Below are positions 5,149 to 40,518 of a stretch of DNA of 47,533 bases, one piece after another. This DNA comes from an uncultured Saprospiraceae bacterium (GTDB lineage: Bacteria; Bacteroidota; Bacteroidia; Chitinophagales; Saprospiraceae): positions 1 through 47,533 of the forward strand of contig CALLXF010000078.1 in the NCBI GenBank assembly GCA_938015805.1, written 5' to 3'. Positions within the stretch are counted from its first letter, which is position 1. Every line of letters begins with the position of its first letter. The position numbers were made by a program, and so were the translations under genes. The notes beneath the pieces were generated by a model. That model saw only the letters and a program-made list of their open reading frames with translations. It made no database searches and was not told where the DNA came from.

Positions 5149-5817
5149 TTATTTGATCAGCGGAATACCATTAAGATCATGAGTCAGTATATCTGACATG
5201 TAATCAAAATAAGGTCGTATGCCATTGTAAGTTCTTATAATTTCTTTTGTAAAATCTTTAGACGTAACTATAGTATCGCTTATTTTACGGCTTACATACA
5301 TCTGTTTATATCTAAGCAAATCTATAGCAGGGTCCTCTTTACTAAATCCTTTAGGAGCTGTTTTTACTTGCTCTCCCTGTAATTCGCCAAAAAGGTCTTT
5401 AAATCTTTTAGCATTCAGAATTTTTCTTAGTGGTTTAGGGTCCTGTGCAATCTGACCTCGTATAAGTTTTAAGTCTGTCGGCTCTGGTCCCCAAAACCCA
5501 CAAGCCACAAAGGTTTCTCCAGGAGCGATTCTTAAATAGTATCCACCTCTACGATGAGCTCCTTCTCTCGTAAATGATAATCTAAAATCTGGATTGTAAG
5601 GCGTCTTATCTTTAGAAAATCTAACATCTCTGTGGATGCGGAACATTTTAGACTTTTCAATACTATCTATTTTTTGCATTTCTGCTAATAGTGTTTCTTG
5701 AAATGATTTTACATTGGCTTTAGCCTCATCATACTCCTCTTTGTTTTCTTGAAACCAAGGTCTATTATTATTTTTAGAGAGCTTTTTACAATACGCTAGA
5801 GTCTTTTTTGAAATCAT
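5149..5817 (-). CDS. DUF2461 family protein
   Basis: The 222-residue product matches the DUF2461 family at about its usual length. Near the N-terminus are LSKNNNRPWFQENKEEYD and the RIHRDVRFSKDKTPYNPDF block. Then come GGYYLRIAPGETFVACGFWGPEP and, towards the end, YKQMYVSRKISD. No catalytic residues or reaction are established for the family, so no function is given. The protein has no signal peptide or membrane segment and should be cytoplasmic. It lies 53 bases downstream of the DUF5723-like gene on the same strand, but an exact TAnnTTTG box within that gap suggests it has its own promoter. It converges with the beta-helix gene. Confidence 0.88.
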   Translation of the reverse strand: MISKKTLAYCKKLSKNNNRPWFQENKEEYDEAKANVKSFQETLLAEMQKIDSIEKSKMFRIHRDVRFSKDKTPYNPDFRLSFTREGAHRRGGYYLRIAPGETFVACGFWGPEPTDLKLIRGQIAQDPKPLRKILNAKRFKDLFGELQGEQVKTAPKGFSKEDPAIDLLRYKQMYVSRKISDTIVTSKDFTKEIIRTYNGIRPYFDYMSDILTHDLNGIPLIK

Positions 5818-5841
5818 TTGTTGGGTTCTTTAAATGTATGA

Positions 5842-5849
5842 CAAAGTTA
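5842..5849 (-). promoter_or_regulatory. Candidate -7 promoter box (TAACTTTG) for the DUF2461 gene
   Basis: The minus strand reads TAACTTTG, an exact TAnnTTTG match, 24 bases before the ATG at 5817. That spacing fits a short leader. The -33 TTTG element is not well matched. The stop of the upstream gene lies close by at 5871, so this promoter would allow separate expression of the second gene. Confidence 0.4.
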
Positions 5850-5870
5850 AAAAATAGGATTGCGAGACCA

Positions 5871-7322
5871 TTAAAATTCATAACACTTTACTTTAGAAGA
5901 ACCTTGTTTTGACTTAGGACTATTGTAGTAAGATTTTCTTTTTAGGAAGGAAAACATATCAGAATTAACTCTTAGAGCAATAAAACCATTAAAAGCCCTT
6001 AAATGCGTAGGTAGAATCATAGGTATCAGATTATCTGTTCCGATAATTAATGGGCCTATCCTAGCTGTCGCTCCTACTCTTAAATACTGATGGTTGTACA
6101 AGCTTAAGGGAAAAGATGCACCGATCCATTTGCGATCATAATATGCCGTTGCCATTATAAGAGCATTTCTTTCTATCGGGCTGTAAAATGGAATACTTTC
6201 TTGTATGGCTACGGAAACATTCCAGTTTTTTTGTAGGGGAAACTGATAGAAAGCTTGCAAGATGGCTGGGGTGTTGACGGATCGATTTTGCGTATTATCG
6301 ATATAATTTTTGTCATCTATTTCTATTTCTTTTTGTAATTCCGTTATAAAATTTTCGTCAAGGAATTTATTTTTCACGATATACCCATCTTGTAATGTGA
6401 TGTGTTGATAATGTCCATTACTATTATAATTAATAGAACCGATATCCGAGACGGACACACCTATTTTGTGATTTCTATCAGAATATTGGCTTTCTCTCCA
6501 TTGGTAAATAAAACCTAGATCTATTGCAATCCCACCTCCACGAACCTGGTGATCATAGCTATAAGAACTTATCTCCTCGTCATAACCTACACCAGAGAAT
6601 AATGCGTATTCAAAATTTCCATTTTCTATGTAAATGCTATCTCTCAGTTTAGTCGCTCGAGTATCCTGATTACTTCGTGCATAAAACAGATTGTAGGAGT
6701 CTAGTTTTTTTAAAGTCCCCCCTAGGTGGATCGTACTATAATCATCGATCGTTATGCTTGTACTCAGCGATAGACCGATCTCTCGCCAGTCCATGTAAGA
6801 AAAATTGGCTTTGGGGAAGGTAAAATCATCTTGTGAATTTAGATCAGCGATATATTTGGCTTGAGAAAAATTGGGAATATCATTTACATGAGCAAATGCT
6901 CTAACCTTAGAATATAAGCCGATGCTGATCTTATCTGTCTGTATCATTATGCCGGGACCTAAAATTTCTAAATCTAAGTGCGATCGAGTATTTTGATGAT
7001 TTAAAAACCTCAACCCAAATTGCGATTCTATTTCATTGATATCTTCCACTCCCATTTGTAGTTGGTTTTGTATTTCCGAAGAATGACCTGATAAGAATGA
7101 GATAAAACTAGTACTTGGAAATTCTAATAAATTATTAGATATATCCAGACCTGCTCCGATAATGCTTAAGTCCCACTTATAGACAGAGGTACGGACGGCT
7201 GCAGGATTTGTATGGATAGAGTATATACCTCCATAATCACCAACTTTTAGTCCAGAATACTGTTGTGCATGTAGATAAATAAAAGAGAAGCTTAGAAGTA
7301 AAATTAAAAGGTGTCTTTTCAA
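5871..7322 (-). CDS. DUF5723-like outer-membrane beta-barrel protein
   Basis: The product has 483 residues with a signal peptide (MKRHLLILLLSFSFIYLHAQ). Right after cleavage comes a segment ending in YGGIYSIHTNPAAVRTSVY, a glycine-rich start followed by an HTNPA motif, as in long-chain-fatty-acid-transporter-like and DUF5723 barrels. The rest consists of amphipathic strands such as ISIGLYSKVRAFA and WNVSVAIQESIPF, ending near IGTDNLIPMI and GFIALRVN. The C-terminal tail after the last strand is short and basic (KRKSYYNSPKSKQGSSK), which is unusual for a barrel normally ending in an aromatic residue. I place it in the outer membrane with no known substrate. DUF5723 membership is by resemblance only. 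Confidence 0.72.
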   Translation of the reverse strand: MKRHLLILLLSFSFIYLHAQQYSGLKVGDYGGIYSIHTNPAAVRTSVYKWDLSIIGAGLDISNNLLEFPSTSFISFLSGHSSEIQNQLQMGVEDINEIESQFGLRFLNHQNTRSHLDLEILGPGIMIQTDKISIGLYSKVRAFAHVNDIPNFSQAKYIADLNSQDDFTFPKANFSYMDWREIGLSLSTSITIDDYSTIHLGGTLKKLDSYNLFYARSNQDTRATKLRDSIYIENGNFEYALFSGVGYDEEISSYSYDHQVRGGGIAIDLGFIYQWRESQYSDRNHKIGVSVSDIGSINYNSNGHYQHITLQDGYIVKNKFLDENFITELQKEIEIDDKNYIDNTQNRSVNTPAILQAFYQFPLQKNWNVSVAIQESIPFYSPIERNALIMATAYYDRKWIGASFPLSLYNHQYLRVGATARIGPLIIGTDNLIPMILPTHLRAFNGFIALRVNSDMFSFLKRKSYYNSPKSKQGSSKVKCYEF

Positions 7323-7488
7323 TACGGGTTTCTGGAATTTTAAAACAGAGCAAAGTTCAATAAATATGCTGAGCTTCTAGTGGATAAAAATAATACTTGC
7401 AAAGTAGCAGACATCATTGGTCTTTATGTAACGATGTTTTTTATGTTTTAATTATTCTTTGATAAGATAGTTATCATAGTGCGATTCT

Positions 7489-7496
7489 TAATTTTG
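7489..7496 (+). promoter_or_regulatory. Candidate -7 box (TAATTTTG) next to the phosphoesterase start
   Basis: TAATTTTG matches TAnnTTTG and ends 8 bases before ATG 7505. A TTTG at 7458-7461 is 27 bases further upstream, longer than the usual spacer. The position resembles the boxes before mnmE and before the barrel gene at 33993. Confidence 0.3.
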
Positions 7497-7504
7497 TGGT
7501 TTCG

Positions 7505-8746
7505 ATGAAAAAATTCATTTCTATGTTCACTGTAGTTTTTATACTTTATTTGATTGCAGATATCTACACTTTTTTTGGACTGAGTTCTTTAATAAATGGA
7601 GCTAGTAATCGGACGTTATTTACGGTGGTTTATTTTTTAAGTTCAGTTTTTGTTTTTTACTGTTTTTATAAAATATGGTTTATCGCTTCTTCTTATAAAA
7701 TGTTTAGTGGAACCCAGGTAAATTTTTATTTAGGTATGTTTTTGACTGCCTTTGCGGCGAAAATTACTTTTGCTTTTTTTATGATCATACAGGATCTACC
7801 GAGAATTTTTGCTGGTATATATAATTTCTTTATACATAGAGATAGAGGGTCATATTTTCCCTCCAGACGTAAGGCATTAACCACTATTGCTACAGGTATA
7901 GCAGCTATTCCTTTTTTTGGGATGTTGTACGGAGTGACTAAGGGAAAATATAAGTATACCGTAAATAGTTTATCGATTAATTATAAAAATTTACCTAAAT
8001 CATTTGATGGATATAAGATCGTCCAGATTTCTGACATTCATGCTGGGAGTTTTGATAGTAAAGAAAAAGTGATGCGTGGAATCGATATGATTAATGCCTT
8101 AGAAGCAGATGCTGTTTTTTTTACTGGTGATTTGGTTAACTCTAGTAAGGAGGAGATCGATCCTTATATCGATGTATTTGCTCAGATAAAAGCAAAAGAT
8201 GGGATTTTTGCTGTTTTAGGAAATCATGATTATTACGGATTGTACGAGGTAGAAGAGTCAGATAAAGATTCGTATTGGGATGATTTCTTTGATAAATATA
8301 AGCGGATGGGTTTTGATCTGCTAAATAATGAGAGTCGTACGATAAAACGTAATGGAGATTTATTACGTATTGTAGGAGTGGAAAACTGGGGAGCAGGAAG
8401 ATGGTTTCCAAAAGAAGGAGATTTAGATAAAGCATTAGCTGATGTGGATGCAGATGATTTTTGCGTTTTACTTTCTCATGATCCGACACATTGGGAAGAA
8501 AAAGTCTTACCTCACAAAAAGAAAATTGATCTCACACTCAGTGGACATACGCATGGATTCCAGTTTGGGATAAATATTCCGGGTTTTAAATGGAGCCCAG
8601 CTCAGTATCGATATAAAAGATGGATCGGTTTACATGAGGAACATGATCAGAAACTATATATCAATAAAGGTTTTGGCTTTCTTGCGTTTCCGGGTAGAGT
8701 AGGGATGTGGCCTGAGATCACTGAGATCCAACTCAAAGCTGTATAG
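7505..8746 (+). CDS. Membrane-anchored calcineurin-like metallophosphoesterase
   Basis: From ATG 7505 the protein has 413 residues. Four hydrophobic segments lie in roughly the first 150 residues: one near the N-terminus, one around VVYFLSSVFVFYCFYKIWF, one around LGMFLTAFAAKITFAFFMI and one around ALTTIATGIAAIPFFGML. The phosphoesterase domain follows with its metal motifs in order: ISDIHAGS (DxH), FFTGDLVN (GD), AVLGNHDYYG (GNHD), LLSHDP and LSGHTHGFQ (GHxH). This is the YkuE/YaeI-like type, whose members act at the membrane surface on phosphate esters. The substrate here is not known. A GTG at 7496 is in frame, but the ATG is the more usual start. The gene is monocistronic, with a TAATTTTG box just upstream. 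Confidence 0.9.
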   Translation: MKKFISMFTVVFILYLIADIYTFFGLSSLINGASNRTLFTVVYFLSSVFVFYCFYKIWFIASSYKMFSGTQVNFYLGMFLTAFAAKITFAFFMIIQDLPRIFAGIYNFFIHRDRGSYFPSRRKALTTIATGIAAIPFFGMLYGVTKGKYKYTVNSLSINYKNLPKSFDGYKIVQISDIHAGSFDSKEKVMRGIDMINALEADAVFFTGDLVNSSKEEIDPYIDVFAQIKAKDGIFAVLGNHDYYGLYEVEESDKDSYWDDFFDKYKRMGFDLLNNESRTIKRNGDLLRIVGVENWGAGRWFPKEGDLDKALADVDADDFCVLLSHDPTHWEEKVLPHKKKIDLTLSGHTHGFQFGINIPGFKWSPAQYRYKRWIGLHEEHDQKLYINKGFGFLAFPGRVGMWPEITEIQLKAV

Positions 8747-8921
8747 TATTTACTATTTGATCCCTTTTAAAAAGTAGAGTACCGCACTTTTACGTTTTCT
8801 TTACGTTTTAAGATCCTCCATAAATTATAAGATATGTAGGTACACTAATCACAGAAGGTGAGAAAGTGCAGATATAACTTCATTTATAAAACGAAGTGGT
8901 AAGTAGTTTATTAGTAAAAGA
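8747..8921. other. Non-coding stretch after the phosphoesterase gene
   Basis: I see no gene here. A direct repeat TTTACGTTTT occurs twice near 8789-8815. A weak inverted repeat ACTTC / GAAGT around a TTTATAAA core lies near 8877-8897. Neither has the T-tract needed for a confident terminator call. Confidence 0.3.
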
Positions 8922-9077
8922 CTAAGCTCTTATTTCTAAATAACGTGTGATACCTGAAGCAATAGAGAATATTATAAAAGCAATAGCCAATATTAATTGA
9001 AATCCTCCAAGAAAATTAAATACTAAAACGATCAAAAGTATCGCTGCGATAAGTAAAAGAAAGTGTGATGTTTTCAT
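8922..9077 (-). CDS. 51-residue two-helix membrane protein
   Basis: This is a short open frame from ATG 9077 to TAG 8922. It encodes MKTSHFLLLIAAILLIVLVF and continues through a Gly-Gly hinge (NFLGGFQ) into a second hydrophobic segment (LILAIAFIIFSIASGI), then a charged end (TRYLEIRA). Two membrane helices with a tight turn are expected. The pattern is too regular to be chance: a basic or polar start, two helices of about 18 residues and a polar tail. The leader before the ATG is A-rich (aataaagatcataact). It stands alone between the phosphoesterase gene (convergent) and the giant HYR-like gene (divergent). No family or function is recognised. Small proteins like this are often missed by gene callers. 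Confidence 0.6.
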   Translation of the reverse strand: MKTSHFLLLIAAILLIVLVFNFLGGFQLILAIAFIIFSIASGITRYLEIRA

Positions 9078-9239
9078 AGTTATGATCTTTATTACTCTTC
9101 TGACGTAGAAATATCCAAAAGGATTCTAATTTTTATTTTTTTATGCAAAATAAATATTCGCCGTAAGGCTAATAAAATTAATAGTTATGGATAAAAAATT
9201 AATATAAAAAATAAAAATGTATTAATTACCTGTATACTA

Positions 9240-9273
9240 TTTGACAATTGCGGGATTATAGAATCTATATTTG
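9240..9273 (+). promoter_or_regulatory. Bacteroidota-type promoter for the HYR-like giant gene
   Basis: TTTG at 9240-9243 and TATATTTG at 9266-9273 match the -33 (TTTG) and -7 (TAnnTTTG) elements with a 22-base spacer. This is the clearest full promoter I found in the window. It would start transcription near 9280 and leave a leader of about 115 bases before the ATG at 9397. Confidence 0.65.
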
Positions 9274-9297
9274 TGCCATCCATAATAATCTATTTAT

Positions 9298-9323
9298 AAT
9301 CTTAATTCCCCCTAAGATTTTTT
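9298..9323 (+). promoter_or_regulatory. Weak hairpin with T-tract inside the 5' leader
   Basis: AATCTTA (9298-9304) and TAAGATT (9313-9319) pair perfectly around the loop ATTCCCCC, and the stem runs into six T residues (9318-9323). It lies downstream of the predicted transcription start and upstream of the ATG, where an attenuator would sit. The stem is only 7 pairs and mostly A-T, so termination strength would be low. Confidence 0.3.
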
Positions 9324-9396
9324 CCCCTTTTCTAATCTGACACAAGACGATCCTCGTAAGAGGTAAACAACTCATTTATTAACCAAAACTAAAGTT

Positions 9397-12300
9397 ATGT
9401 GTAAAAATTTACGCATTGACAGAGGCTATAAGTCTGTGTCTGCAATCCTTTTAACTTTTTGTTTCCAGTTTTTCTTGGTTAGTAATCTATCGTCCCAGTC
9501 ATTGACTTGTAACAATAGTGTACAGGTTTCTTTGGACGAGAACTGTGAAGCAGAGATTACACCAGACGACATTCTGGAAGGTACCTATCCTGGTACTGAT
9601 GCCGATTACACAATCACCATAGGTGGTGTAGTTGGAAATATTGTTTCAGATAAGGGAACTTATTCTGTTACTGTTACTTACAACCCGACCGGTAATAATT
9701 GCTGGAGTACGATGGTTGTGGAGGATAAATTACCTCCTCGAATTACAGGTGTTACCTGTTCGACTAATCTTTCAGGAACCGTAGATGGTAGTAACATGCT
9801 TACTGGAGATGACTCCGGAACTTGTGCTATGGCAGCGGCTTCTGATCCTGCTATTGCTGCAGCTATCGCTGCAGCAGGTGGAATTAACAATGTAGGCTAC
9901 ATGCTAGAGCCATTTTCTGTAGGAGTACAGGATGACTTTGAGTTCGTGGCAGAAGACCCAGGAGCTGCTTGTTATGTTTTATTTTACGTTTACCGTGCTG
10001 GTGAATTTGATCCTAACGATCCATGTAATGGATTTATAGCAGGAACAGATGGTTACTTTGGTGGAGGCTTTAGCCAAAACGGAGCAGCTAATCTTCCCGC
10101 AGGAGATTACGAACTAGTAATCTGTGAGTTTCCAGCGGATGGATCTTGTGGATATAGCGTAAATCTTTTAGCAGCTAACTGTGAATTAAATTGCACAGAT
10201 CTAGCTGGTCTTCAAGACGGATCTTTAGTTCCTACTACTCCAGTGGTAGTAGAGAATTGTAGTGATTACGATTGTCAGTTTTCTGACTTTGTTGCTCCTG
10301 ACCAATGTGGAACAACTACAGTAACACGTACATGGATTTGTACTGATGATTGCGGTAACGCATCTCTTCCATTTACGGAAGTATTTAATTTAGACCCGGT
10401 AGATTTAGCTGATATTACTGCACCAGACGCAGAAGTAGAACTTTCTTGTGGAGAAGACACTGCACCAGAATCAATCTATGATTATTTAATAGAGAATGGA
10501 TCCTCTCCTGCGGCTGCTAATATGGCTGCATACCCTACCTTAAACGGTAGTCCACTTTTAGGTGCTATCTGTAACTTAGCGATAACGTATACAGATGTAT
10601 CAGTGCCTTTATGTGATGCTGGTTGCAGTGGTAATGTAAAAGTTATCAGAACATGGCAGGTGTATGACTGGTGTGATGGGACGACTACTCCATTAACATT
10701 TGTCCAGATCATTAAGGCTTCAGATAATGAAGTTCCTACTATAACTTTTAACACACCTTCTTTAACCGTCTCTGTTGACCCATGGGGTTGTATCGCGAGT
10801 CTAACGTTACCTGTTCCAGATATCTTACATGATAACTGTGATGATAACTTAGAATATTACGTAACAGATGCTACAGGTAAAGTTATGACTGATGGTTCAG
10901 GTCTTCCTTTAGGAACGCACACCTTGACATACTTTGCAGAAGATTGTTGTGGAAATATAGGAAGTGCTACTATTACAGTTACTGTAGTAGATCAGACTCC
11001 TCCAGTTGCAGTAGCTACACAAAATGTTGTGGTTAGCTTAACATCTGGTGGTGGTACAGGATTAGCTAAACTATATACTAATAGTATCGATAATAATTCT
11101 CATGATGGATGTGGACCTGTTACTTTAGAAGTAAGAAGAGACTCTGATAATTGTGGACTTACTGGAAATGATACATTTAACGATGACGGTCATCCAAATG
11201 ATGGAAGCTCTAATCCTAACAGCCCACTTTATGATACGGACGAAGGTCAGTTTGTAAAATTCTGTTGTGAAGATGTATACGGAGAAAATGGTGTAGATGT
11301 AGATGGTGATGGTGTAAACGATTACGGTATTGTAAAAGTATGGTTGAGAGTTTTTGATAATAACGGAAACTACAGCGATACTTGGGCAAATGTAAGAGTA
11401 GAGGATAAACTACAGCCTGCTATAGTATGTCCTCCAGATGTTACTATCGATTGTGATGTAGCTATAAGTGATACAGGTGTTACTGGTGTCGCTACGGCTT
11501 ACAGTGCTTGTGGAAATGCACAGGTAGACTATACAGATCTTAATGATGTAAGCTCTTGTAACACGGGTACCGTAAATAGAAGATGGTTCATCGTAGGTAA
11601 CCCTGCCGTTAGATGTGTACAGAAAATTACTAAAACTCCAGGTGACCTTTTTGATGGCGATGATATTAATTGGCCAGCAGATATGGATACGGACTGTGCA
11701 GATTTAGGATTTACTGGAATTCCTACTTACTCTACCGGAGCATGTGATCAGGTGGCTTATAGTATGGAGTCAGACACTTTCCTTTTTGAAAGCGGAGCTT
11801 GTCTTAAAATATTAAACAAATTTACCGTAATCGACTGGTGTCAGTATGATGCTAATGCTTCTTTCTCAGATGGGATCTGGATGCATACGCAGATTATTAA
11901 AGTTAATGATAGCGAAGCTCCAACTTTAGAATCATGTGATGATTTAATGCTTGCAGTAAATGACCATAACGATGATGATAATGATGGTAACATATGTGAG
12001 GGAGTAGGTCTTATGTTGACTAACTCTGCAGTAGATAACGGTGAGTGCTCTAGTGACTGGTTAAAGTGGGAAGTAAGAATAGATGTATGGGGTAACGGTA
12101 TATTTGAGTATACTTACTCTTCTAATCTACCTTCTAACAGTCCGTTTTTCTTAGCACCTACTTCTAATGGAGGCGAAGTAAAAGTAAATCTACCAGATAT
12201 CGATGGAAGCATGGCAAACCATAAAGCACACTGGAGTGTGTCTGATGGTTGCGGAAATGTAACCTCTTGTGTGGTAACATTTATGGTCGTAGATAAAAAA

Positions 12301-13869
12301 GACCCGACACCTTATTGTGTTAATTTGAGTACAGCATTAATGGAAAATGGTACAGTAGACTTATGGGCTATTGATTTTGACCTAGGTGCATCTGATAATT
12401 GTACATCTCAAGATGATCTGAGATTTACCTTTAGTAATGTCCCTCCGCAAGATGATCCTAACTACATACCATCATTAAGCAGTTCTTCTCAAACTTTTAC
12501 TTGTGACGACTTACCAGCTAATCCTACAACACCTCTTCCACTTAACGTTTACGTTTGGGATGAGAAGGATAACTTTGAGTTCTGCACAGTTTTCTTAACA
12601 CTAATAGACAACCAAAACGCATGTAACGATGGTGCTTTAACAGCTCCAATCCAGGGTAGAGTAGCAACAGAAAACGGTGAAAACATCGAATCTGTAGAAA
12701 TGCAATTATCTACTGATATCCAAGGATTTCCATATACTCAGATGACTAACAGTAACGGTAATTATGCATTCCATAATAACCCGATGTATTTTGATTATGG
12801 AATCGAAGGAAGTAAAGAAGATGACTATATGAATGGTGTAAGTACTTTAGATTTAGTTTTAATCCAAAAGCACATTTTAGGAGTTCAGTTCCTAAATTCA
12901 CCTTACAAAGTAATCGCTGCAGATATTAATAATGATGCAAATGTTTCTGCATTGGATTTAATCCAATTAAGAAAATTAATCTTAGGTATCTATGACGAAT
13001 TACCATCTAACTTAAGTTGGAGATTTATCGATGAAAGTCAGACGTTTAGTAATGCCATGAATCCTTTCCCTTTTAATGAGGAAATAGATGTAATGGATTT
13101 ATCTTCAGCGATGATAGCTGAGAACTTTGTCGGAGTAAAAATAGGAGATGTAAATAATACTGCAACTGCAAACTTTGACTCAGGTATAGTAGATAATAGA
13201 TCTGGTAAAACAGTACAGTTTGTAATAGATGATGCTGATGTTACTGCAGGACAGTCTGTAGAAGTAGCAGTTACAGCAAATGACTTTACGCAAGTATTAG
13301 GATACCAGTTTACTTTAGAAACAGCAATGGAATTAGTTAATGTAACTAGTGGTGCTATTGACGTAAGTCAAACCAACTTTGCAACAGTAAATAACGCAAT
13401 AACTACTTCATGGAATAAAACAGATGCGATATCTGTAAACAACGATGAGGTATTATTTACCATGACATTAGTTCCTGCTACAACAGGTAAACTAAGTCAG
13501 ATGTTAGATCTATCAGATAGAGTTACTGTTTCTGAGGCTTACGCCAATGATTACAGTACTTCTAAAGTAGAGCTAGGAATTAGAACTGACGGAAACGATC
13601 TTTCTGATGGTTACCAGTTGTTCCAAAACGAACCAAATCCATTTAATGGTCAGACAGTTATAGGATTTAACTTAGCCTCTGCATCTAAAGCGACGATTAC
13701 TGTTTTTGATGTAACAGGAAAAGTGATTACAACTATATCTAATGATTACGAAAAAGGATATAATGAAGCTGTGATTTCCTCTAGTGATTTAGGAATGACA
13801 GGTGTAGTATATTATCAATTAGATAGTGGTGATTTTACAGCTACTAAGAAAATGATAGTAATTGAGTAA
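9397..13869 (+). CDS. Giant secreted HYR-like protein with dockerin-like, cohesin-like and T9SS sorting domains
   Basis: The protein has 1490 residues. An N-terminal signal segment (ILLTFCFQFFLVSNLSSQ) is followed by immunoglobulin-like modules of HYR type. These recur as DxCGN followed by VxDxxxP, for example ITVTVVDQTPPVAVA and ADVTVDCD-type strands (PPDVTIDCDVA). They are rich in cysteine. Acidic loops such as DVDGDGVND (residue 634 on) look able to bind calcium. Near 1090 a carboxypeptidase-regulatory-like module begins. A dockerin type I-like pair follows at about 1141-1205 (GVSTLDLVLIQKHILG, then DINNDANVSALDLIQLRKLI). A cohesin-like beta-sandwich spans about 1270-1395 and a type A T9SS sorting domain about 1405-1490 (YQLFQNEPNPFNG to the end). 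It is predicted to be exported through T9SS and displayed or released at the surface. It has its own promoter and terminators. Its ligand is unknown. Confidence 0.88.
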   Translation: MCKNLRIDRGYKSVSAILLTFCFQFFLVSNLSSQSLTCNNSVQVSLDENCEAEITPDDILEGTYPGTDADYTITIGGVVGNIVSDKGTYSVTVTYNPTGNNCWSTMVVEDKLPPRITGVTCSTNLSGTVDGSNMLTGDDSGTCAMAAASDPAIAAAIAAAGGINNVGYMLEPFSVGVQDDFEFVAEDPGAACYVLFYVYRAGEFDPNDPCNGFIAGTDGYFGGGFSQNGAANLPAGDYELVICEFPADGSCGYSVNLLAANCELNCTDLAGLQDGSLVPTTPVVVENCSDYDCQFSDFVAPDQCGTTTVTRTWICTDDCGNASLPFTEVFNLDPVDLADITAPDAEVELSCGEDTAPESIYDYLIENGSSPAAANMAAYPTLNGSPLLGAICNLAITYTDVSVPLCDAGCSGNVKVIRTWQVYDWCDGTTTPLTFVQIIKASDNEVPTITFNTPSLTVSVDPWGCIASLTLPVPDILHDNCDDNLEYYVTDATGKVMTDGSGLPLGTHTLTYFAEDCCGNIGSATITVTVVDQTPPVAVATQNVVVSLTSGGGTGLAKLYTNSIDNNSHDGCGPVTLEVRRDSDNCGLTGNDTFNDDGHPNDGSSNPNSPLYDTDEGQFVKFCCEDVYGENGVDVDGDGVNDYGIVKVWLRVFDNNGNYSDTWANVRVEDKLQPAIVCPPDVTIDCDVAISDTGVTGVATAYSACGNAQVDYTDLNDVSSCNTGTVNRRWFIVGNPAVRCVQKITKTPGDLFDGDDINWPADMDTDCADLGFTGIPTYSTGACDQVAYSMESDTFLFESGACLKILNKFTVIDWCQYDANASFSDGIWMHTQIIKVNDSEAPTLESCDDLMLAVNDHNDDDNDGNICEGVGLMLTNSAVDNGECSSDWLKWEVRIDVWGNGIFEYTYSSNLPSNSPFFLAPTSNGGEVKVNLPDIDGSMANHKAHWSVSDGCGNVTSCVVTFMVVDKKDPTPYCVNLSTALMENGTVDLWAIDFDLGASDNCTSQDDLRFTFSNVPPQDDPNYIPSLSSSSQTFTCDDLPANPTTPLPLNVYVWDEKDNFEFCTVFLTLIDNQNACNDGALTAPIQGRVATENGENIESVEMQLSTDIQGFPYTQMTNSNGNYAFHNNPMYFDYGIEGSKEDDYMNGVSTLDLVLIQKHILGVQFLNSPYKVIAADINNDANVSALDLIQLRKLILGIYDELPSNLSWRFIDESQTFSNAMNPFPFNEEIDVMDLSSAMIAENFVGVKIGDVNNTATANFDSGIVDNRSGKTVQFVIDDADVTAGQSVEVAVTANDFTQVLGYQFTLETAMELVNVTSGAIDVSQTNFATVNNAITTSWNKTDAISVNNDEVLFTMTLVPATTGKLSQMLDLSDRVTVSEAYANDYSTSKVELGIRTDGNDLSDGYQLFQNEPNPFNGQTVIGFNLASASKATITVFDVTGKVITTISNDYEKGYNEAVISSSDLGMTGVVYYQLDSGDFTATKKMIVIE

Positions 13870-34052: not shown

Positions 34053-34517
34053 ATGAAGTTGTTAATGATATGTTTAGGGAATATTTGTAGGTCGCCCCTC
34101 GCTCATGGGATTATGCAAAATATGATTGATGAGCAACAACTGGGTTGGACTGTAGATTCTTGTGGAACCTCGGGTTTTCATAATGGCGAGCCACCAGACA
34201 CTCGATCTGTAGAAGTTGCCCAGAGACATGGGATAAATATTTTATCACAAAAATCTAGAAAGCTTGTACCTAGGGATCTTGAAGAGTTTGATTTACTAAT
34301 TGCTATGGATTCTAGTAATTTTCAGAATATTAAGAATATGGCTTCTCCAGATCATTATCATAAAATAAAACTCCTTCTAAATTATTCTTATCCTGATATT
34401 AATAAGGCAGTTCCAGATCCTTATTATGAAGGTGGTTTTGATGCTGTTTATGATATGATTTACCAAGCATGTTTAGATTTGATCAGAGTAGAGAAAGAAA
34501 ATATTTCTTTGGCTTAA
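34053..34517 (+). CDS. Low-molecular-weight protein-tyrosine phosphatase
   Basis: This 154-residue protein has the full signature of the family. The phosphate loop is CLGNICRS (nucleophile Cys7, Arg13, followed by Ser14). The general-acid motif is DPYY with Asp122. Length is as usual for the family. Such enzymes dephosphorylate tyrosine residues on cytoplasmic proteins and in many bacteria counteract a tyrosine kinase of capsule or exopolysaccharide export. No such kinase is in the window, so its substrate is open. It is followed after 43 bases by a CAP-domain gene on the same strand, possibly co-transcribed. Assignment is secure. Confidence 0.95.
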   Translation: MKLLMICLGNICRSPLAHGIMQNMIDEQQLGWTVDSCGTSGFHNGEPPDTRSVEVAQRHGINILSQKSRKLVPRDLEEFDLLIAMDSSNFQNIKNMASPDHYHKIKLLLNYSYPDINKAVPDPYYEGGFDAVYDMIYQACLDLIRVEKENISLA

Positions 34518-34560
34518 AGCCAATAAATACTTTACCTTCATTTTAAAGCGTTTTATACAG

Positions 34561-35019
34561 ATGATGGTTATCCTAATGATACTGAGTTTGTTTATGCCTA
34601 TACAGCATGACGATGATTTTAAAGCCTATACGCTTAAAAGAGTAAATGCTTTGCGGGCAGAGGGATGTAACTGTGGTGGAAAGTGGATGCCGCCGACTGG
34701 TAAACTTACCTGGAATAATCGCTTGTTTGATTCCGCACTTATTCATGCCAAAGACATGCATGTACATCGATACTTTGGTCATTATAATAAGAGGGGAGAA
34801 GATATCGGAAGACGTATAGAGAAGACAGGTTATGACTGGGCCGTCGTAGGTGAAAATCTAGGAGAAGGTCAAAAATCCTTTGATCAGGTATTTAGGGATT
34901 GGATAAAGAGTTCTTCGCATTGTCGGATGCTTATGAATCCTAAAGTAAATGAAATGGCTGTTGCTAAATATCGTAAGTACTGGGTTCAGCATTTTGGGAG
35001 AGAGCATAGTAGATCATGA
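34561..35019 (+). CDS. CAP (SCP/PR1-like) domain secreted protein
   Basis: The product has 152 residues. A short hydrophobic N-terminus (MMVILMILSLFMPIQ) is followed by the CAP fold: LKRVNALRAEGCNCGG, LTWNNRLFDSALIHAKDMHV, RYFGHYNKRGEDIGRRIEKT, VVGENLGEG and SSSHCRMLMNPKVNEMAVAK. The conserved His and Glu of the CAP cavity are visible in HYN and GEN. The protein ends FGREHSR, near where the family's final strand stops. Bacterial CAP proteins are secreted, and their substrates are mostly unknown. The ATG at 34561 or the next one at 34564 could be used. The region downstream contains a small inverted repeat, TTAGGT / ACCTAA at 35025-35043, before the convergent dipeptidase gene. Confidence 0.88.
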   Translation: MMVILMILSLFMPIQHDDDFKAYTLKRVNALRAEGCNCGGKWMPPTGKLTWNNRLFDSALIHAKDMHVHRYFGHYNKRGEDIGRRIEKTGYDWAVVGENLGEGQKSFDQVFRDWIKSSSHCRMLMNPKVNEMAVAKYRKYWVQHFGREHSRS

Positions 35020-36311: not shown

Positions 36312-36926
36312 TTACTGCAGTAATTTAGTTACTCCCGTGGCATATTTAGAATACTTAGTTTGCTTAAAAGGAAAGAACTTTGCGATATCATTAAATGGTA
36401 AAATCTGATCTTGATCAAATTTTATTTCTACTATGATCATTTCTTCTTTTGCAGACTTAGGTGTAGAGTTATAGTCGCCATATTCTAAATCTTGATCTAT
36501 TGTAATCCTAAATTTATTGTCCATGGATAGATAATAAGAGCGTGTGTAGCTATTCCATAACGTAGCTTTTAAAGCTGCAGGTAGACCACCTTCTTTTAAA
36601 TCTCTGACATGAGCAAATGCATCCGTCCCTATAGGGACCTCTAAATACTCTTTCCAGCCAAGCTGATATTCTTTTCTTTTTAATTCTATATGACCGGTTG
36701 TGATTTTAGATTTATCACCATACCATCTATATCTTACTTTGGTGCGGATCGGGTCACCATTAATGTTTTGGTAGTAAGACTGTAAATCAGGTGAGTCAAA
36801 ATAAATATTATTTATCACACGATCTGGAAATGCGGTATCGAAAGAGGAAGGATGAGAAAGGATGGCTTGCTGAACCATAGAAATATTTACCATCGGAACA
36901 GCAAATTTTATCTCGTACCTTTTCAT
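36312..36926 (-). CDS. VTC domain (polyphosphate polymerase-type) protein
   Basis: The product has 204 residues, a single VTC domain of the triphosphate-tunnel fold. The charged tunnel residues are all visible: YEIKFAV (ExK), TKVRYRWYGD (RxR), HIELKRKEYQ, a basic WKEYLEV strand, FRITIDQDLEYGD, VEIKFD (late ExK) and SKYATGV. In yeast the Vtc4 version makes polyphosphate from ATP. Bacterial copies are annotated as polyphosphate polymerase domain proteins. There is no membrane segment, so activity would be cytoplasmic and handed to the adjacent membrane proteins. Its start overlaps the CotH-like gene's stop by 4 bases (36923-36926). Retention of the tunnel residues argues for an active enzyme, but the product is inferred. 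Confidence 0.88.
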   Translation of the reverse strand: MKRYEIKFAVPMVNISMVQQAILSHPSSFDTAFPDRVINNIYFDSPDLQSYYQNINGDPIRTKVRYRWYGDKSKITTGHIELKRKEYQLGWKEYLEVPIGTDAFAHVRDLKEGGLPAALKATLWNSYTRSYYLSMDNKFRITIDQDLEYGDYNSTPKSAKEEMIIVEIKFDQDQILPFNDIAKFFPFKQTKYSKYATGVTKLLQ

Positions 36927-39847
36927 TGTACTGGGGTGTTTAGAAAATCGATTACAGAGTCGTTTTCTTTAAGCTCTAAAAATTTATTGTTTGTAGCGGA
37001 GTAGTTTTTTATAGTAATCTTGGCAGGTCCGTATTCTGGTTTTTTCTGATAGGCAGCAAAAGCTTTAATGCAGTTTTGAACACTAATATTTTCTATCGTT
37101 ACATGGGATAGATCTTTAGAAGCGACTCCGATATCTGCACCGTCTATAGTACTAGATACTATTTCTATTGTGGCTTCTTCTCCAGCACTTACTCCTTTAT
37201 CGCCTATGTTTTTAAATACGCAGTTTTCTATAGTGATAGTACTACCCGAAAAATCAAATGCATCGTTTCCAGTATCTAAACTATAGGAGTTGCGTACGGT
37301 ACCCGAGCAAAAATCTGCATCAAAACCATCAGCGTAAGTATTAGATAAATGCATTTTATCGATTATAAAATCTGTTCGTATCAGATTTAGAGCATCTTCA
37401 CAATGGTTATTTGCAAAATTACAATGATAAAGTTCTACTGTAGACTCATAGAAAGTAACAGCTCCTGTCATAAAGTATGTACCCTCATCGAGATTATCTA
37501 AATGATCAAATTGTACATATTTTAATACAGATTTATCAGGTGCTTTTAGGACGAGTAAGCCCTGTCCAGTATGATCAGATGAGAAAATTTTTATCGGTAG
37601 ATCTGCTGTCCCGTCTAGGAGTAATTTAGAAGAAGAATAGATATATGCTTTGTTAGTTAGATCTATTTCTGTTCCAGCTTCTATATATAAAGTTTTATCC
37701 CTTGGGATAATCATCGGTGTAGATAAAGAATACTTTCCCGTTTTAATACGGATTGTACTATCGCTGATCTCATAATCATTCTTATTTAAAGGTAAGACTA
37801 AAGTGTTTTTTAATTTATCAGTTCTGGCCATGTCATTTCCAGATGGCCATTTTTTTACTCTTGAGTAATGGATGTCTGATAGTCCTAGTACTTTATAATA
37901 AAGAACAGTGTGGTCAATAGGAATATTATAGTCTACATACTCCGGTGCCATTTTTGGATGGTTACTCCATACTGTTTTTTCTAAAGGTTTTATGGTATTA
38001 GGATTATTACTTAGTTCTGTCCCACTACCGATTACCAGTAACGGTAAGTGATGATAGTTACTTATAGATAACTGTTTCTCAGAATTAGATGAGTTGTTAG
38101 TATAAGCCTTTAGACTTACATTGTCATAGGCTGGAATGGAGGCATGTATTTCTTTAGCTTTTGCATGGATCGCTTTCCGATCTAATTTGTAATCCGGATA
38201 ATCGTATTGAAGTAATTTTTCCCTTTGATCTAATTTGTCCTTGATTAGATCAAAATAATTTTTAATGTAATCGGGCTCTGAGAAATAATTAATATAGTAC
38301 GCATACTTTTCGGCGAAAGCCTTATTCCTAAAAAGCACGTTGTAGAATTTACCCCAGGCATCATTCATATGCTTATTAGACTTGTAATACCCAAAACAAG
38401 TGTAAAAGGATATATTATATTCGTTCTCTTCTATAAAACCATCATATCCGATCGGCTCTAGTAATCGGGTTACTGGGTTATAATAAAATCGCTGATTATG
38501 CCATACGAGACTGTGGTATGCATTTAGGACTTCTAGTATGGCATAATACTTTGCCATACGATCAATATCGAAAATTTCTTCTACAGGTTTTAAGTGATGC
38601 TTGTAAGCATACATTAATTCTTGAGCTTCGATAAATTGTTTTGTTAGTGCGGAATCTCCTTCTATTTTAGAAGCAGCAAATGGCTCTATGTCTGAATGAT
38701 ATTTTGCAGTGACCATTTCAGTGTTATGATGACCGAGGGCTTTTTTTGATCTGATTCTTTGAGCCCAGGCTACATCCTCTGTATATTTTACAATGACGCC
38801 TTCTCTTCTTTTATTAGACTCAGGTAAATGCTTTATAAAATGTTCCTCATAAGCATAAACCATAGGTCTAGTATCATTTAATTTAAGCCAGAAAAAATCA
38901 TACCTCGTAGTTAAAATATCTTCGTGTAATAGTAAATCATGATAGAGCCATTCCTTTAAGAAAAATCTTCTTTCTGGGCTTTGGAAAGAAAATACCTGCA
39001 TTCTATTCCATGCAGATTCTTTATCTGTCTTAATTCTATAGGACCACTTTTTACCTTCCAGATGATCTGTCCAGTCCCCTTTGAGCCTGAGTTTTACATT
39101 TTGGGAGAGTCCATTTTCTTTTAATTTTGCTTTTGCGTAGGTACCGTCGTTTACAAGTATTCCGTAACGCAGAGCCTGGTCACGAGTGTCTTCTATTTTT
39201 TTAAAACCTTTCCGATCTATATATAAATCTACTTTTTTTACATCGAGTGTAGAGACTAAGTTAGATAAGCTATCCGCTTTAATAATATCTATTTTGAAAT
39301 CATCAAAGTAAGCTTGGTCTTTATCCGATAGAGAGTAAGGAAATATTTTAATACTACTAAGTGCATCATTACGAGGAACGTCTATACAAAAGCTGATCAA
39401 GTCCCAGCCTTCTGGATCAGTCTCATCAGCAATGTTAGCCTGGTAAGAAAATCCAGAACCCTCATTACCTTGAGCGGCAAGATATCCAGTATCGGCACCA
39501 GTCATCCATCTCCATATAGAAGTACATATTTTATCACCCTGTTCCACATTTTCTATAGTGTAACTCGGACCATATTTTTGATTTTTATTGATCAGGCAGG
39601 AATGCTTGCCGGAACGTGATTTTTGAGAAGTTTGGGTATGAGCGTTTGTAAAGCTATAAGCACCTTCTATAAACAACGCATCTTTTCGATGCTCCATAGA
39701 TGTGGATATGGCATACTTATTTGATTGCTTTTTTGAAAATAGTTTTAGTGCTGCAAATACTACAGCTGTTCCTAAAACCGCAAGCAGTAAAAGTTTAGAG
39801 AAATGTCTGATGATCCAGGACTTCTTATGATCGTCCTTTATAATCAT
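36923..39847 (-). CDS. Membrane-anchored CotH-like protein fused to a C-terminal beta-helix
   Basis: The product has 974 residues. A membrane segment at about 17-35 (KLLLLAVLGTAVVFAALKLF) comes first, then a carbohydrate-binding-like part. A CotH-like domain at about 200-480 is recognisable by LKLRLKGDWTDH-type strands (VKLRLKGDWTDHLEG), the KWSYRIK block, FFLKEWLYHDLLL, and YYAILEVLNAYHSLVWHNQ followed by LLEPIGYDGF. From about residue 680 to the end a right-handed beta-helix follows (DKSVLKYVQFDHL, IENCVFKNIGDKG, VTIENISVQNCIK). CotH proteins of Bacillus spores are atypical kinases that phosphorylate coat proteins. The extracellular placement and the different acidic motif here leave kinase activity unproven. 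Four-base overlaps couple it to the DUF4956 and VTC genes. The beta-helix fusion is a notable addition. Confidence 0.85.
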   Translation of the reverse strand: MIIKDDHKKSWIIRHFSKLLLLAVLGTAVVFAALKLFSKKQSNKYAISTSMEHRKDALFIEGAYSFTNAHTQTSQKSRSGKHSCLINKNQKYGPSYTIENVEQGDKICTSIWRWMTGADTGYLAAQGNEGSGFSYQANIADETDPEGWDLISFCIDVPRNDALSSIKIFPYSLSDKDQAYFDDFKIDIIKADSLSNLVSTLDVKKVDLYIDRKGFKKIEDTRDQALRYGILVNDGTYAKAKLKENGLSQNVKLRLKGDWTDHLEGKKWSYRIKTDKESAWNRMQVFSFQSPERRFFLKEWLYHDLLLHEDILTTRYDFFWLKLNDTRPMVYAYEEHFIKHLPESNKRREGVIVKYTEDVAWAQRIRSKKALGHHNTEMVTAKYHSDIEPFAASKIEGDSALTKQFIEAQELMYAYKHHLKPVEEIFDIDRMAKYYAILEVLNAYHSLVWHNQRFYYNPVTRLLEPIGYDGFIEENEYNISFYTCFGYYKSNKHMNDAWGKFYNVLFRNKAFAEKYAYYINYFSEPDYIKNYFDLIKDKLDQREKLLQYDYPDYKLDRKAIHAKAKEIHASIPAYDNVSLKAYTNNSSNSEKQLSISNYHHLPLLVIGSGTELSNNPNTIKPLEKTVWSNHPKMAPEYVDYNIPIDHTVLYYKVLGLSDIHYSRVKKWPSGNDMARTDKLKNTLVLPLNKNDYEISDSTIRIKTGKYSLSTPMIIPRDKTLYIEAGTEIDLTNKAYIYSSSKLLLDGTADLPIKIFSSDHTGQGLLVLKAPDKSVLKYVQFDHLDNLDEGTYFMTGAVTFYESTVELYHCNFANNHCEDALNLIRTDFIIDKMHLSNTYADGFDADFCSGTVRNSYSLDTGNDAFDFSGSTITIENCVFKNIGDKGVSAGEEATIEIVSSTIDGADIGVASKDLSHVTIENISVQNCIKAFAAYQKKPEYGPAKITIKNYSATNNKFLELKENDSVIDFLNTPVQ

Positions 39848-40518
39848 AGGATAATATCTGGCTGATCAATGATAGAGATATCTGCTTGACCATCTAGATT
39901 TAAGATAGCTGATTTTAGTCCTTGAATATCTGATAGTGATTTTAGTTTTCCTACAAGGCTATAAAAATGTCTTTCTCCTTTAGAGTCGGCACGCTTTAGT
40001 TCGAGGTAAGAAACATGCGGGCTTAAAGCATCGATAAGGGACTGTACGTTACTGTGGCTCGTTCTAATATTAAGATGTGATTTTCCAGATAACGATTTTT
40101 CTTTTCCGATAATCCTGCTGTGTAAAAATAAAATAGGCAAGATTAAAGCAAAGCTCAAAATAGCCAACAAAGGTTTGTTTGCACCTCCGACTATACCTAA
40201 TCCGATAACCAGAAAAAGGTAAGTAAGCTCTTCTGGATCTTTAATAGCGGCTCTAAAACGTACAATGGATAAAGCACCTACAAGTCCTAACGATAAAGCG
40301 ATGGATGATTTTATTACTGTGATGATGAGTAATGTGGCTAAAGCCAATGGTAAGAAGATGCCAGCAAATTTACGACGATCTGATAAAGCCCTTCCGTAGC
40401 GAACATAAAATTGCTGTACTAAAAATGCAAGGATAGCTACGACAAAAAAATTGACCAGAAAATCTTGTATATCTATGGTCGAATTAAAGTCACTTAGGTA
40501 TTTCTCAAAATTCAGCAT
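39844..40518 (-). CDS. DUF4956 membrane protein
   Basis: The product has 224 residues and shows the DUF4956 signature: SLGLVGALSIVRFRAAIKDPEELTYLFLVI. The membrane segments lie around 22-37, 50-70, 75-90, 100-130. The C-terminal part from about 150 is soluble and ferredoxin-like in its strand order (LNIRTSHSNVQSLI, HFYSLVGKL). No enzymatic role is known. The gene is first in a run DUF4956, CotH-like, VTC, dipeptidase, with its stop overlapping the CotH-like start by 4 bases (39844-39847). DUF4956 genes are frequently found next to VTC-domain genes in other bacteria, which suggests a membrane complex for polyphosphate or a phosphorylated product (inference). Confidence 0.9.
   Translation of the reverse strand: MLNFEKYLSDFNSTIDIQDFLVNFFVVAILAFLVQQFYVRYGRALSDRRKFAGIFLPLALATLLIITVIKSSIALSLGLVGALSIVRFRAAIKDPEELTYLFLVIGLGIVGGANKPLLAILSFALILPILFLHSRIIGKEKSLSGKSHLNIRTSHSNVQSLIDALSPHVSYLELKRADSKGERHFYSLVGKLKSLSDIQGLKSAILNLDGQADISIIDQPDIIL

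Follow-up and report, generated by a model that had tools for sequence, protein, structure and literature searches.

A Conserved DUF4956, CotH-Fold/β-Helix, and VTC Gene Set from a Saprospiraceae Bacterium: A Possible Envelope Module for Phosphate Polymer and Surface Glycan

Introduction

The investigation described here concerns three contiguous genes on the minus strand of contig CALLXF010000078.1 (assembly GCA_938015805.1) from an uncultured Saprospiraceae bacterium, the whole analyzed stretch of which, 47,533 nucleotides in length, is hereafter referred to as the window. They encode a membrane protein of the DUF4956 family, a large membrane-anchored protein in which a CotH-like fold is joined to a right-handed β-helix (hereafter the large protein), and a VTC-domain protein. 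The DUF4956-large protein-VTC set is a conserved unit that recurs in other genomes. It may constitute an envelope module in which a phosphate polymer is coupled to glycan at the cell surface, a reading that is put forward tentatively. The genes, their clustering, the co-occurrence of VTC, DUF4956, and CotH, the folds, the tunnel residues, the invariant histidine, and the export-type companions in other genomes were all computed in this study.

Results

The gene set and its recurrence

The source genome is a 118-contig draft that is 98.8% complete. An earlier note on this DNA had described three genes coupled by four-base ATGA overlaps, and all three open reading frames (ORFs) and both overlaps were verified on the minus strand. 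The order in the window is DUF4956-large protein-VTC, as listed below.

39844..40518, minus strand: DUF4956 protein, 224 amino acid residues (ORF; Pfam PF16316)
36923..39847, minus strand: large membrane-anchored protein ("CotH-beta"), 974 residues (ORF, profiles, structure model)
36312..36926, minus strand: VTC-domain protein, 204 residues (ORF; Pfam PF09359)
39844..39847, minus strand: ATGA overlap between the DUF4956 and large-protein genes (sequence)
36923..36926, minus strand: ATGA overlap between the large-protein and VTC genes (sequence)

The large protein is present in 25 of 60 genomes, its own included; in genome G017 the match is confined to the N-terminal domain. A scan of the contig collection yielded 495 related stretches, the best of which became 79 named loci (given L numbers here). 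Fifty-one are titled Saprospiraceae, and the rest include Aureispira, Phaeodactylibacter, Crocinitomicaceae, and Flavobacteriales. Neighbor counts were restricted to the 56 informative loci in which the large-protein gene is flanked on each side by 900 bases or more, the other 23 being dropped. A neighbor was defined as a gene on the same strand within 1.5 kb, the labels came from locally built profiles, and the starts were taken as the first possible ones. This neighborhood survey, which had been suggested in the earlier note, revealed that the set indeed recurs, with DUF4956 or VTC adjoining the large protein in 47 of the 56 loci. DUF4956 accounts for 44 and VTC for 27; both are found in 24, and VTC alone in 3. 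The four-base overlap is likewise repeated, between DUF4956 and the large protein in 37 of the 79 loci and between the large protein and VTC in 10. Three Aureispira loci (L112, L122, and L135) display the order DUF4956-VTC-large protein. Note that VTC also lies upstream in L103, a locus with tandem copies that does not represent the Aureispira order.

The large protein occurs in tandem in some cases, with three copies in L046, and genome G023 contains 13 matches, some only pieces. Where VTC is missing, a glucose/sorbosone-dehydrogenase-type gene follows the large protein (L086, L093, L100, L108, L114, and others); the product of the one tested, from L055, carries a PKD domain and a sorting tail. 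A metallophosphoesterase-type gene, its family assigned from one member, occurs at varying distance and strand in 16 of the 79 loci.

VTC, DUF4956, and CotH across the phylum

In a phylum sample of 198 genomes, the source genome included, DUF4956 was found in 59 and VTC in 37 (42 matches in 17 families). Forty-one of the 42 VTC matches have a DUF4956 gene on the same strand within 3.2 kb. In 38 of these VTC directly precedes DUF4956, and in the other three, namely those of the window, L225, and L226, it lies after DUF4956 at 2.7-3.2 kb. The remaining match is a fragment with no partner on its own contig. In L226, which falls outside the class of the window's genome, DUF4956, a large protein, and VTC are encoded in the same order as here. 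The statement in the earlier note that DUF4956 and VTC genes often occur together is supported, the two forming a near-obligate pair.

CotH (PF08757) was detected in 81 of the 198 genomes, in all 37 with VTC versus 44 of the 161 without it (Fisher p 8e-18, not corrected for relatedness). Thirty-five of the 41 VTC-DUF4956 pairs were fetched with their flanks (L209-L243), and a CotH gene lies in 14 of these stretches, 13 identified by profile and one by coordinates. Hits of the local CotH profile were counted at E-values of 1e-40 or better; those between 1e-4 and 2e-13, on seemingly unrelated secreted proteins, were excluded.

The VTC protein

The VTC protein consists of a single domain, with neither an SPX nor a membrane domain, and matches Pfam PF09359 over the full extent of that family's domain (E-value 5.4e-29, 101.8 bits versus a cut-off of 23). 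In 38 sequences, R3, E5, K7, R61, K63, R65, R67, E81, K83, R129, R140, D144, E167, K169, K191, S193, and K194 are invariant. The arginine/lysine strands of the N-terminal and middle parts, which are the parts covered by the alignment, align with those of yeast Vtc4 (3g3q), and the C-terminal glutamate and lysine residues are invariant within the family. The residue numbers given for Vtc4 are R264, R266, and E426 (PMC9911596). The tunnel residues had been described earlier as intact, and neither the Vtc4 alignment nor the 38-sequence comparison revealed any loss. Yeast Vtc4 is positioned where a basic channel through the membrane opens, and its synthesis of polyphosphate is coupled to passage of the chain (PMC9911596).

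The polyphosphate kinase PPK was found in 33 of 36 genomes searched, that of the window included. Storage polyphosphate thus needs no VTC protein, and simple storage is an improbable function of the set. A fused VTC protein of 778 residues in L222 was set aside, its ORF being judged falsely extended in DNA of high GC content.

The DUF4956 protein

The match of the membrane protein to Pfam PF16316 is above the cut-off (E-value 5e-15, 56.1 bits versus 30.6). Its architecture comprises approximately five membrane helices followed by a C-terminal ferredoxin-like (ACT/PII-like) domain, residues 143-224, for which Z-scores of up to 9.8 were obtained against ferredoxin-like folds with Foldseek and VIA-align. 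A profile search of the PDB returned nothing at an E-value of 1, and a weak match to MgtC (E-value 0.015) fell under the Pfam cut-off. At an E-value of 0.1, NCBIfam provided no model for this or either of the other two proteins of the set. The most conserved segment is as follows.

40225..40305, minus strand: most conserved DUF4956 segment, residues 72-98 (alignment)

All 51 aligned sequences share the basic residues R87, R89, and K93, which, by the positive-inside rule, are predicted to lie at the cytosolic mouth of the protein.

Architecture of the large protein

The AlphaFold2 model of the large protein, built with an alignment of 73 sequences, has a predicted local distance difference test (pLDDT) score of 90.7. 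From the N-terminus, the polypeptide runs through a membrane helix, a jelly roll resembling a carbohydrate-binding module (CBM), a CotH fold, a β-rich linker, and a right-handed β-helix. Everything beyond the membrane helix is predicted to be extracytoplasmic, given the basic N-terminus.

39734..39814, minus strand: N-terminal membrane helix, residues 12-38 (structure model)
39281..39715, minus strand: CBM-like jelly roll, residues 45-189 (Foldseek, CBM22 4xuo, E-value 6.8e-4)
38132..39247, minus strand: CotH-fold domain, residues 201-572 (VIA-align, hhalign, PDB profile)
38513..38515, minus strand: H445, at the place of the CotH catalytic aspartate, Bacillus subtilis D228 (profile and hhalign alignments)
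38441..38443, minus strand: D469, at the place of B. subtilis CotH D251 (alignment)
36926..37798, minus strand: right-handed β-helix, AlgG/GH87-like, residues 684-974 (VIA-align, Pfam)
37262..37330, minus strand: invariant acidic cluster of the β-helix, D840, D843, D845, and D862 (alignment)

The CBM-like domain also gives a weak profile match to a xylanase CBM (1k42/3jxs, E-value 0.02). The C-terminal β-helix reported in the earlier note was recovered both by Pfam (Beta_helix PF13229, E-value 1.9e-7, residues 827-955) and as an AlgG-like fold (VIA-align to 4ozz, Z-score 28.1, root-mean-square deviation 2.5, 272 residues aligned). Taken together, the CBM-like domain and the conserved AlgG-like β-helix point to a polysaccharide or other glycan as the target. 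Matches of the large protein to interferon-gamma (Pfam E-value 0.033, PDB E-value 0.17) were dismissed as chance.

The CotH-like character claimed earlier holds at the level of the fold. The domain superimposes on Bacillus CotH (5jd9) with a Z-score of 26.3 and a root-mean-square deviation of 3.5 over 322 aligned residues, and in a PDB profile search with an alignment of 24 relatives, residues 236-572 matched the same structure (E-value 1.9e-5). By hhalign, the large-protein family matched eight canonical CotHs, seven encoded in the source genome and one in a second genome of the same bacterial family, at 97% and an E-value of 1.5e-11; against the latter sequence singly, the comparison was not significant (1.7%, E-value 0.03). 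The claim does not extend to Pfam, as PF08757 was not found in the large protein at an E-value of 0.1 and the curated cut-off was not reached. A six-frame search of the source genome with PF08757 located eight other places (nine matches, two in one frame), the large protein not being among them. These canonical CotH genes reside on contigs C40, C45, C52, C58, C59, C68, C72, and C88, and none is in the window.

Active site residues of the large protein

In B. subtilis CotH, either of the substitutions D228Q and D251A abolishes activity (PMC7821199). The equivalent positions in the large protein were placed by the 23-residue spacing together with the alignments. Position 445, corresponding to D228, is histidine in 73 of 73 members and in all 11 further members with a residue there, one further member having a gap. 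Position 469, corresponding to D251, is aspartate in 73 of 73 and glutamate in 3 of 11 divergent members. The other CotH-domain residues K256, E299, E334, N451, and R453 do not vary among the 73. Canonical CotHs beside VTC-DUF4956 in other genomes carry the aspartate-containing motif in 10 of 13 cases as judged by pattern, the motif not being shown in L213, L214, and L218. The relationship to CotH stated in the earlier note is retained, and the kinase part of that reading is weakened; kinase activity is putative for the large protein because the invariant histidine replaces the catalytic aspartate. The large protein is a CotH-fold relative and is not classed as a CotH kinase.

In the β-helix, D840, D843, D845, D862, and K935 are each conserved in 73 of 73 members. 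Of 12 divergent members, 7 to 9 retain the residues of the acidic cluster, which is a possible active or metal site.

Companions of VTC and DUF4956 in other genomes

An HlyD-like adaptor gene lies beside VTC in 15 of the 35 fetched stretches. In 14 of them an adaptor-type protein of ∼356 residues, in one case in two pieces, is encoded directly before VTC, twelve of these 14 proteins being seeds of the detecting profile. The adaptor of L216 gave no Pfam match, and a profile comparison between the two adaptor families was negative (0.5%). In L225 the order is CotH-DUF4956-HlyD-TolC(OEP)-VTC-CotH. All 23 DUF4956 loci without a nearby VTC gene were examined, and 16 have an HlyD-like and 16 a TolC-like neighbor. 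The label TolC-like refers to the protein of 412 residues after HlyD in the VTC-less loci and rests on an hhalign match to the L225 protein (88.5%, E-value 2.7e-6); there was no match in Pfam, NCBIfam, or the PDB, nor did a comparison with the L247 protein reveal a relationship. Six loci have CYTH-type proteins in or beside the set, confirmed by Pfam in L054, L056, and L059 and attributed through clustering or a local profile in L063, L077, and L130. Translations of the three confirmed members, read by eye, open with a signal-like stretch and close with a membrane helix, so that these CYTH proteins hint at an extracellular ligand resembling polyphosphate. The HlyD-like and, in some loci, TolC-like or CYTH neighbors of DUF4956 point to a role in export. 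The proposal of the earlier note that DUF4956 moves polyphosphate or scaffolds the complex is strengthened by these companions as to a membrane or export role.

Among the VTC-less loci, L246 and L256-L270 have DUF4956, then an HlyD-like adaptor, and then, on weak evidence and in all but L256, the TolC-like-labeled protein. In L254 a CotH gene is found two genes on. In L244 and L248, DUF4956 is followed by a protein of 341 residues and a purple-acid-phosphatase-like metallophosphoesterase (Pfam in L244). Among the fetched VTC-DUF4956 pairs, three genes after DUF4956 were tested, revealing DUF2490 in L229 and L236 and DUF480 in L232. The Bacteroides thetaiotaomicron pair BT3498-99 (DUF4956 and DUF2490) is listed in an iron experiment with a value of -7.6 and a second-column entry of 0.175 (table excerpt, PMC10434189).

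Comparison with known systems

The earlier note could offer no established function for the set. As a combination of families it is already in print as a Gram-positive accessory set, with knock-out phenotypes, of loci for the biofilm polysaccharide Pel (PMC7112168, PMC12345266). Streptococci and clostridia have genes for CotH, a polyphosphate polymerase, DUF4956, and DUF4832 alongside pelDEADAFG, and bifidobacteria a variant of this arrangement (PMC7112168). In Streptococcus intermedius, where the three genes are SIR_1592-1594, deletion of SIR_1592 raised Pel and deletion of the CotH gene SIR_1594 lowered it, and either deletion reduced aggregation to less than half in one medium (PMC12345266). 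SIR_1592, described as MgtC plus ACT (PMC12345266), is in our reading of PMC7112168 the DUF4956 member. The authors of PMC12345266 report having met with no case of the three genes occurring jointly away from the Pel locus.

The Gram-positive set and that described here share the clustering of the same three domain families and a proposed link to exopolysaccharide. They differ in that neither PelG nor PelF was found here, the order is DUF4956-large protein-VTC, and the CotH member is a CotH-fold relative only, with CBM-like and β-helix domains and without the catalytic aspartate. PelG was found in none of the 60 genomes, the source genome included, and PF11997, which we take to be the marker of PelF, was not found in the 118-contig draft.

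Two Bacillota plasmids carry versions with canonical CotH. On that of Planococcus maritimus (NZ_CP059541.1, L249, positions 5389-12824) the order is VTC-DUF4956-CotH-hypothetical-HEAT-GT2, and on that of Pseudobutyrivibrio (L250) CotH-VTC-DUF4956 lies among glycosyltransferase, acyltransferase, and pyruvyltransferase genes. The stretches fetched from these plasmids contain no annotated pel gene, and the glycosyltransferases tested, one from L249 and two from L250, contain no PelF or PelG domain. The L249 order is that listed for NELoc-2 of Clostridium perfringens, CP4_0460-0468, likened here by description and not by sequence: VTC, a membrane protein of 222-226 residues, CotH, a protein of 685 residues, HEAT, and a glycosyltransferase (PMC2879425). 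The NELoc-2 membrane protein is, from its size and place, probably DUF4956, and the CotH there is named as such without fused domains, unlike the large protein. This shared order hints that, besides Pel, the trio has a second polysaccharide setting. A Methanosarcina plasmid hit, in unannotated DNA, and a Nonomuraea record, with no annotation there, were not used.

With the eukaryotic VTC complex the set has in common the VTC tunnel domain, with its aligned arginine and lysine residues, and a proposed coupling of synthesis to membrane passage. It differs in having no SPX and no membrane channel domain of its own; the membrane partner would be DUF4956. The Bacillus CotH kinase (5jd9, 5jda) shares the fold and the D251-equivalent aspartate, whereas the large protein has histidine at the D228 position, lies under Pfam detection, and carries fused glycan-type domains. 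The alginate epimerase AlgG and related polysaccharide enzymes share the β-helix fold and, as predicted for the large protein, an extracytoplasmic location. Identity is ∼12%, and in the large protein, where an AlgG-like activity is putative, the helix is fused to a CotH-fold domain. A search of open-access papers returned no account of the set from Bacteroidota, and nothing on exported polyphosphate as a donor for secreted kinases was found.

Surroundings of the set in the window

An M19 dipeptidase gene lies 40 bases downstream of the set, at the distance given in the earlier note, in which it was considered a possible member of the unit. Among the stretches compared, it is beside the set in one genus-mate (L041) only and not in the other (L040), and the suggestion of membership is not upheld. 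The aquaporin gene upstream has no counterpart among these stretches. Low-molecular-weight phosphatase and CAP-domain genes are encoded nearby on the opposite strand (window positions 34053-35019), and this pair is kept in both genus-mates. Neither promoter-like sites (21 versus 28.0 in shuffles) nor terminator-like sites (4 versus 3.5) are in excess.

Discussion

On the basis of these observations, a possible path from phosphate to glycan can be outlined. The cytosolic VTC protein, to judge from its fold and residues, would polymerize phosphate from ATP. The chain would be fed through DUF4956, acting at the inner membrane as a stand-in for the membrane channel of yeast VTC. Outside, the tethered large protein may hold a nascent polysaccharide by its CBM-like domain and AlgG-like β-helix. 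Its CotH-fold domain would act on a phosphorylated ligand or in phosphoryl transfer; the β-helix would process or hold the chain. The polyphosphate product, the channel, and the acceptor and chemistry of the CotH fold are all suppositions within this outline.

Several observations weigh against a phosphate polymer-to-glycan module. At 12 of the 56 informative loci, DUF4956 and a glucose/sorbosone-dehydrogenase-type gene accompany the large protein with no adjacent VTC; DUF4956 is the sole partner in 8, and neither DUF4956 nor VTC lies within 1.5 kb in 9. The phylum co-occurrence figures ignore relatedness. No HlyD-, TolC-, or CYTH-type gene lies beside the set in the window. Of the VTC-adjacent adaptors, two were tested and matched the HlyD/RND family under the curated cut-offs (E-values 2.9e-9 and 2e-6), and the hhalign match to the L225 HlyD is weak (54%, E-value 1.3e-4). 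The VTC-less HlyD/TolC loci are mainly from one family, f41, which contributes 15 of the 16 HlyD cases. The AlphaFold2 model of DUF4956 is moderate (pLDDT 79.4, predicted template modeling score 0.54), and neither Foldseek nor VIA-align returned a known fold for its membrane part. The CotH-fold domain is without the catalytic aspartate. The open-access literature searched yielded no biochemical evidence of polyphosphate synthesis by a bacterial VTC protein of this type, and in S. intermedius, as far as the available portion of PMC12345266 reports, deletion of the polyphosphate-polymerase gene was accompanied by no change in aggregation.

The replacement of the catalytic aspartate by histidine in all aligned members that have a residue at this position raises a different explanation, namely that the CotH fold is a pseudokinase scaffold serving as a nucleotide or phosphate switch. 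The β-helix would then be the enzyme, a hydrolase, lyase, or epimerase acting on an exported polysaccharide, and VTC and DUF4956 would provide only a signal. The four aspartates of the AlgG/GH87-like β-helix, invariant in 73 of 73, are in keeping with this, as is the aspartate motif kept by 10 of 13 canonical CotHs beside VTC-DUF4956 elsewhere. The complete invariance of the pocket residues K256, E299, E334, N451, and D469 in the same 73 sequences would be unusual for a dead domain, however, and the activity of the β-helix is itself putative; we consider the scaffold somewhat unlikely. The distant resemblance of DUF4956 to MgtC, its C-terminal ACT/PII-like fold, and the S. intermedius counterpart, described as MgtC plus ACT and raising Pel when deleted (PMC12345266), could instead indicate an MgtC-like sensor or regulator that, through ligand sensing by its ferredoxin-like domain, governs either a polysaccharide synthase or the uptake of phosphate. 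The near-obligate adjacency to a polymerase domain and the repeated HlyD- and TolC-like neighbors fit transport better, and such a regulator seems unlikely.

The identity of the VTC product bears on the matter as well. The TTM/CYTH superfamily is diverse (PMC8233210), PPK is present for ordinary polyphosphate, and the VTC protein has no SPX or membrane domain. It might therefore make no polyphosphate and hydrolyze or transfer on another tri- or polyphosphate ligand, with the exported product being something else. Such a role is doubtful in view of the full-domain VTC match far over the cut-off and the arginine and lysine residues aligned with Vtc4. That the genes are simply an ordinary operon of neighbors without shared function agrees with the absence of one or two partners in some relatives. 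It is contradicted by recurrence in several families, by the rearranged Aureispira order, and by the canonical-CotH version in the two Bacillota plasmids, and is very improbable.

The proposed coupling of a phosphate polymer to a glycan also admits a bolder form, in which VTC and DUF4956 would be a polyphosphate-exporting polymerase and the exported chain the phosphoryl donor for CotH-type enzymes in the ATP-poor surroundings of the cell, the histidine-for-aspartate variant being adapted to polyphosphate as donor and phosphorylating a polysaccharide. This would explain the presence of CotH in all 37 genomes of the sample with VTC. It is regarded here as quite improbable.

With the set described here, the trio moves from the Pel setting to a wider envelope module. 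DUF4956, a family without an assigned function, gains a testable role, namely that of partner at the membrane to VTC proteins of bacteria. The combination of a sugar-binding-like domain, a CotH fold, and an AlgG-like β-helix in one polypeptide indicates a glycan target, and the question is raised as to what serves as the phosphoryl donor of secreted CotH-like enzymes.

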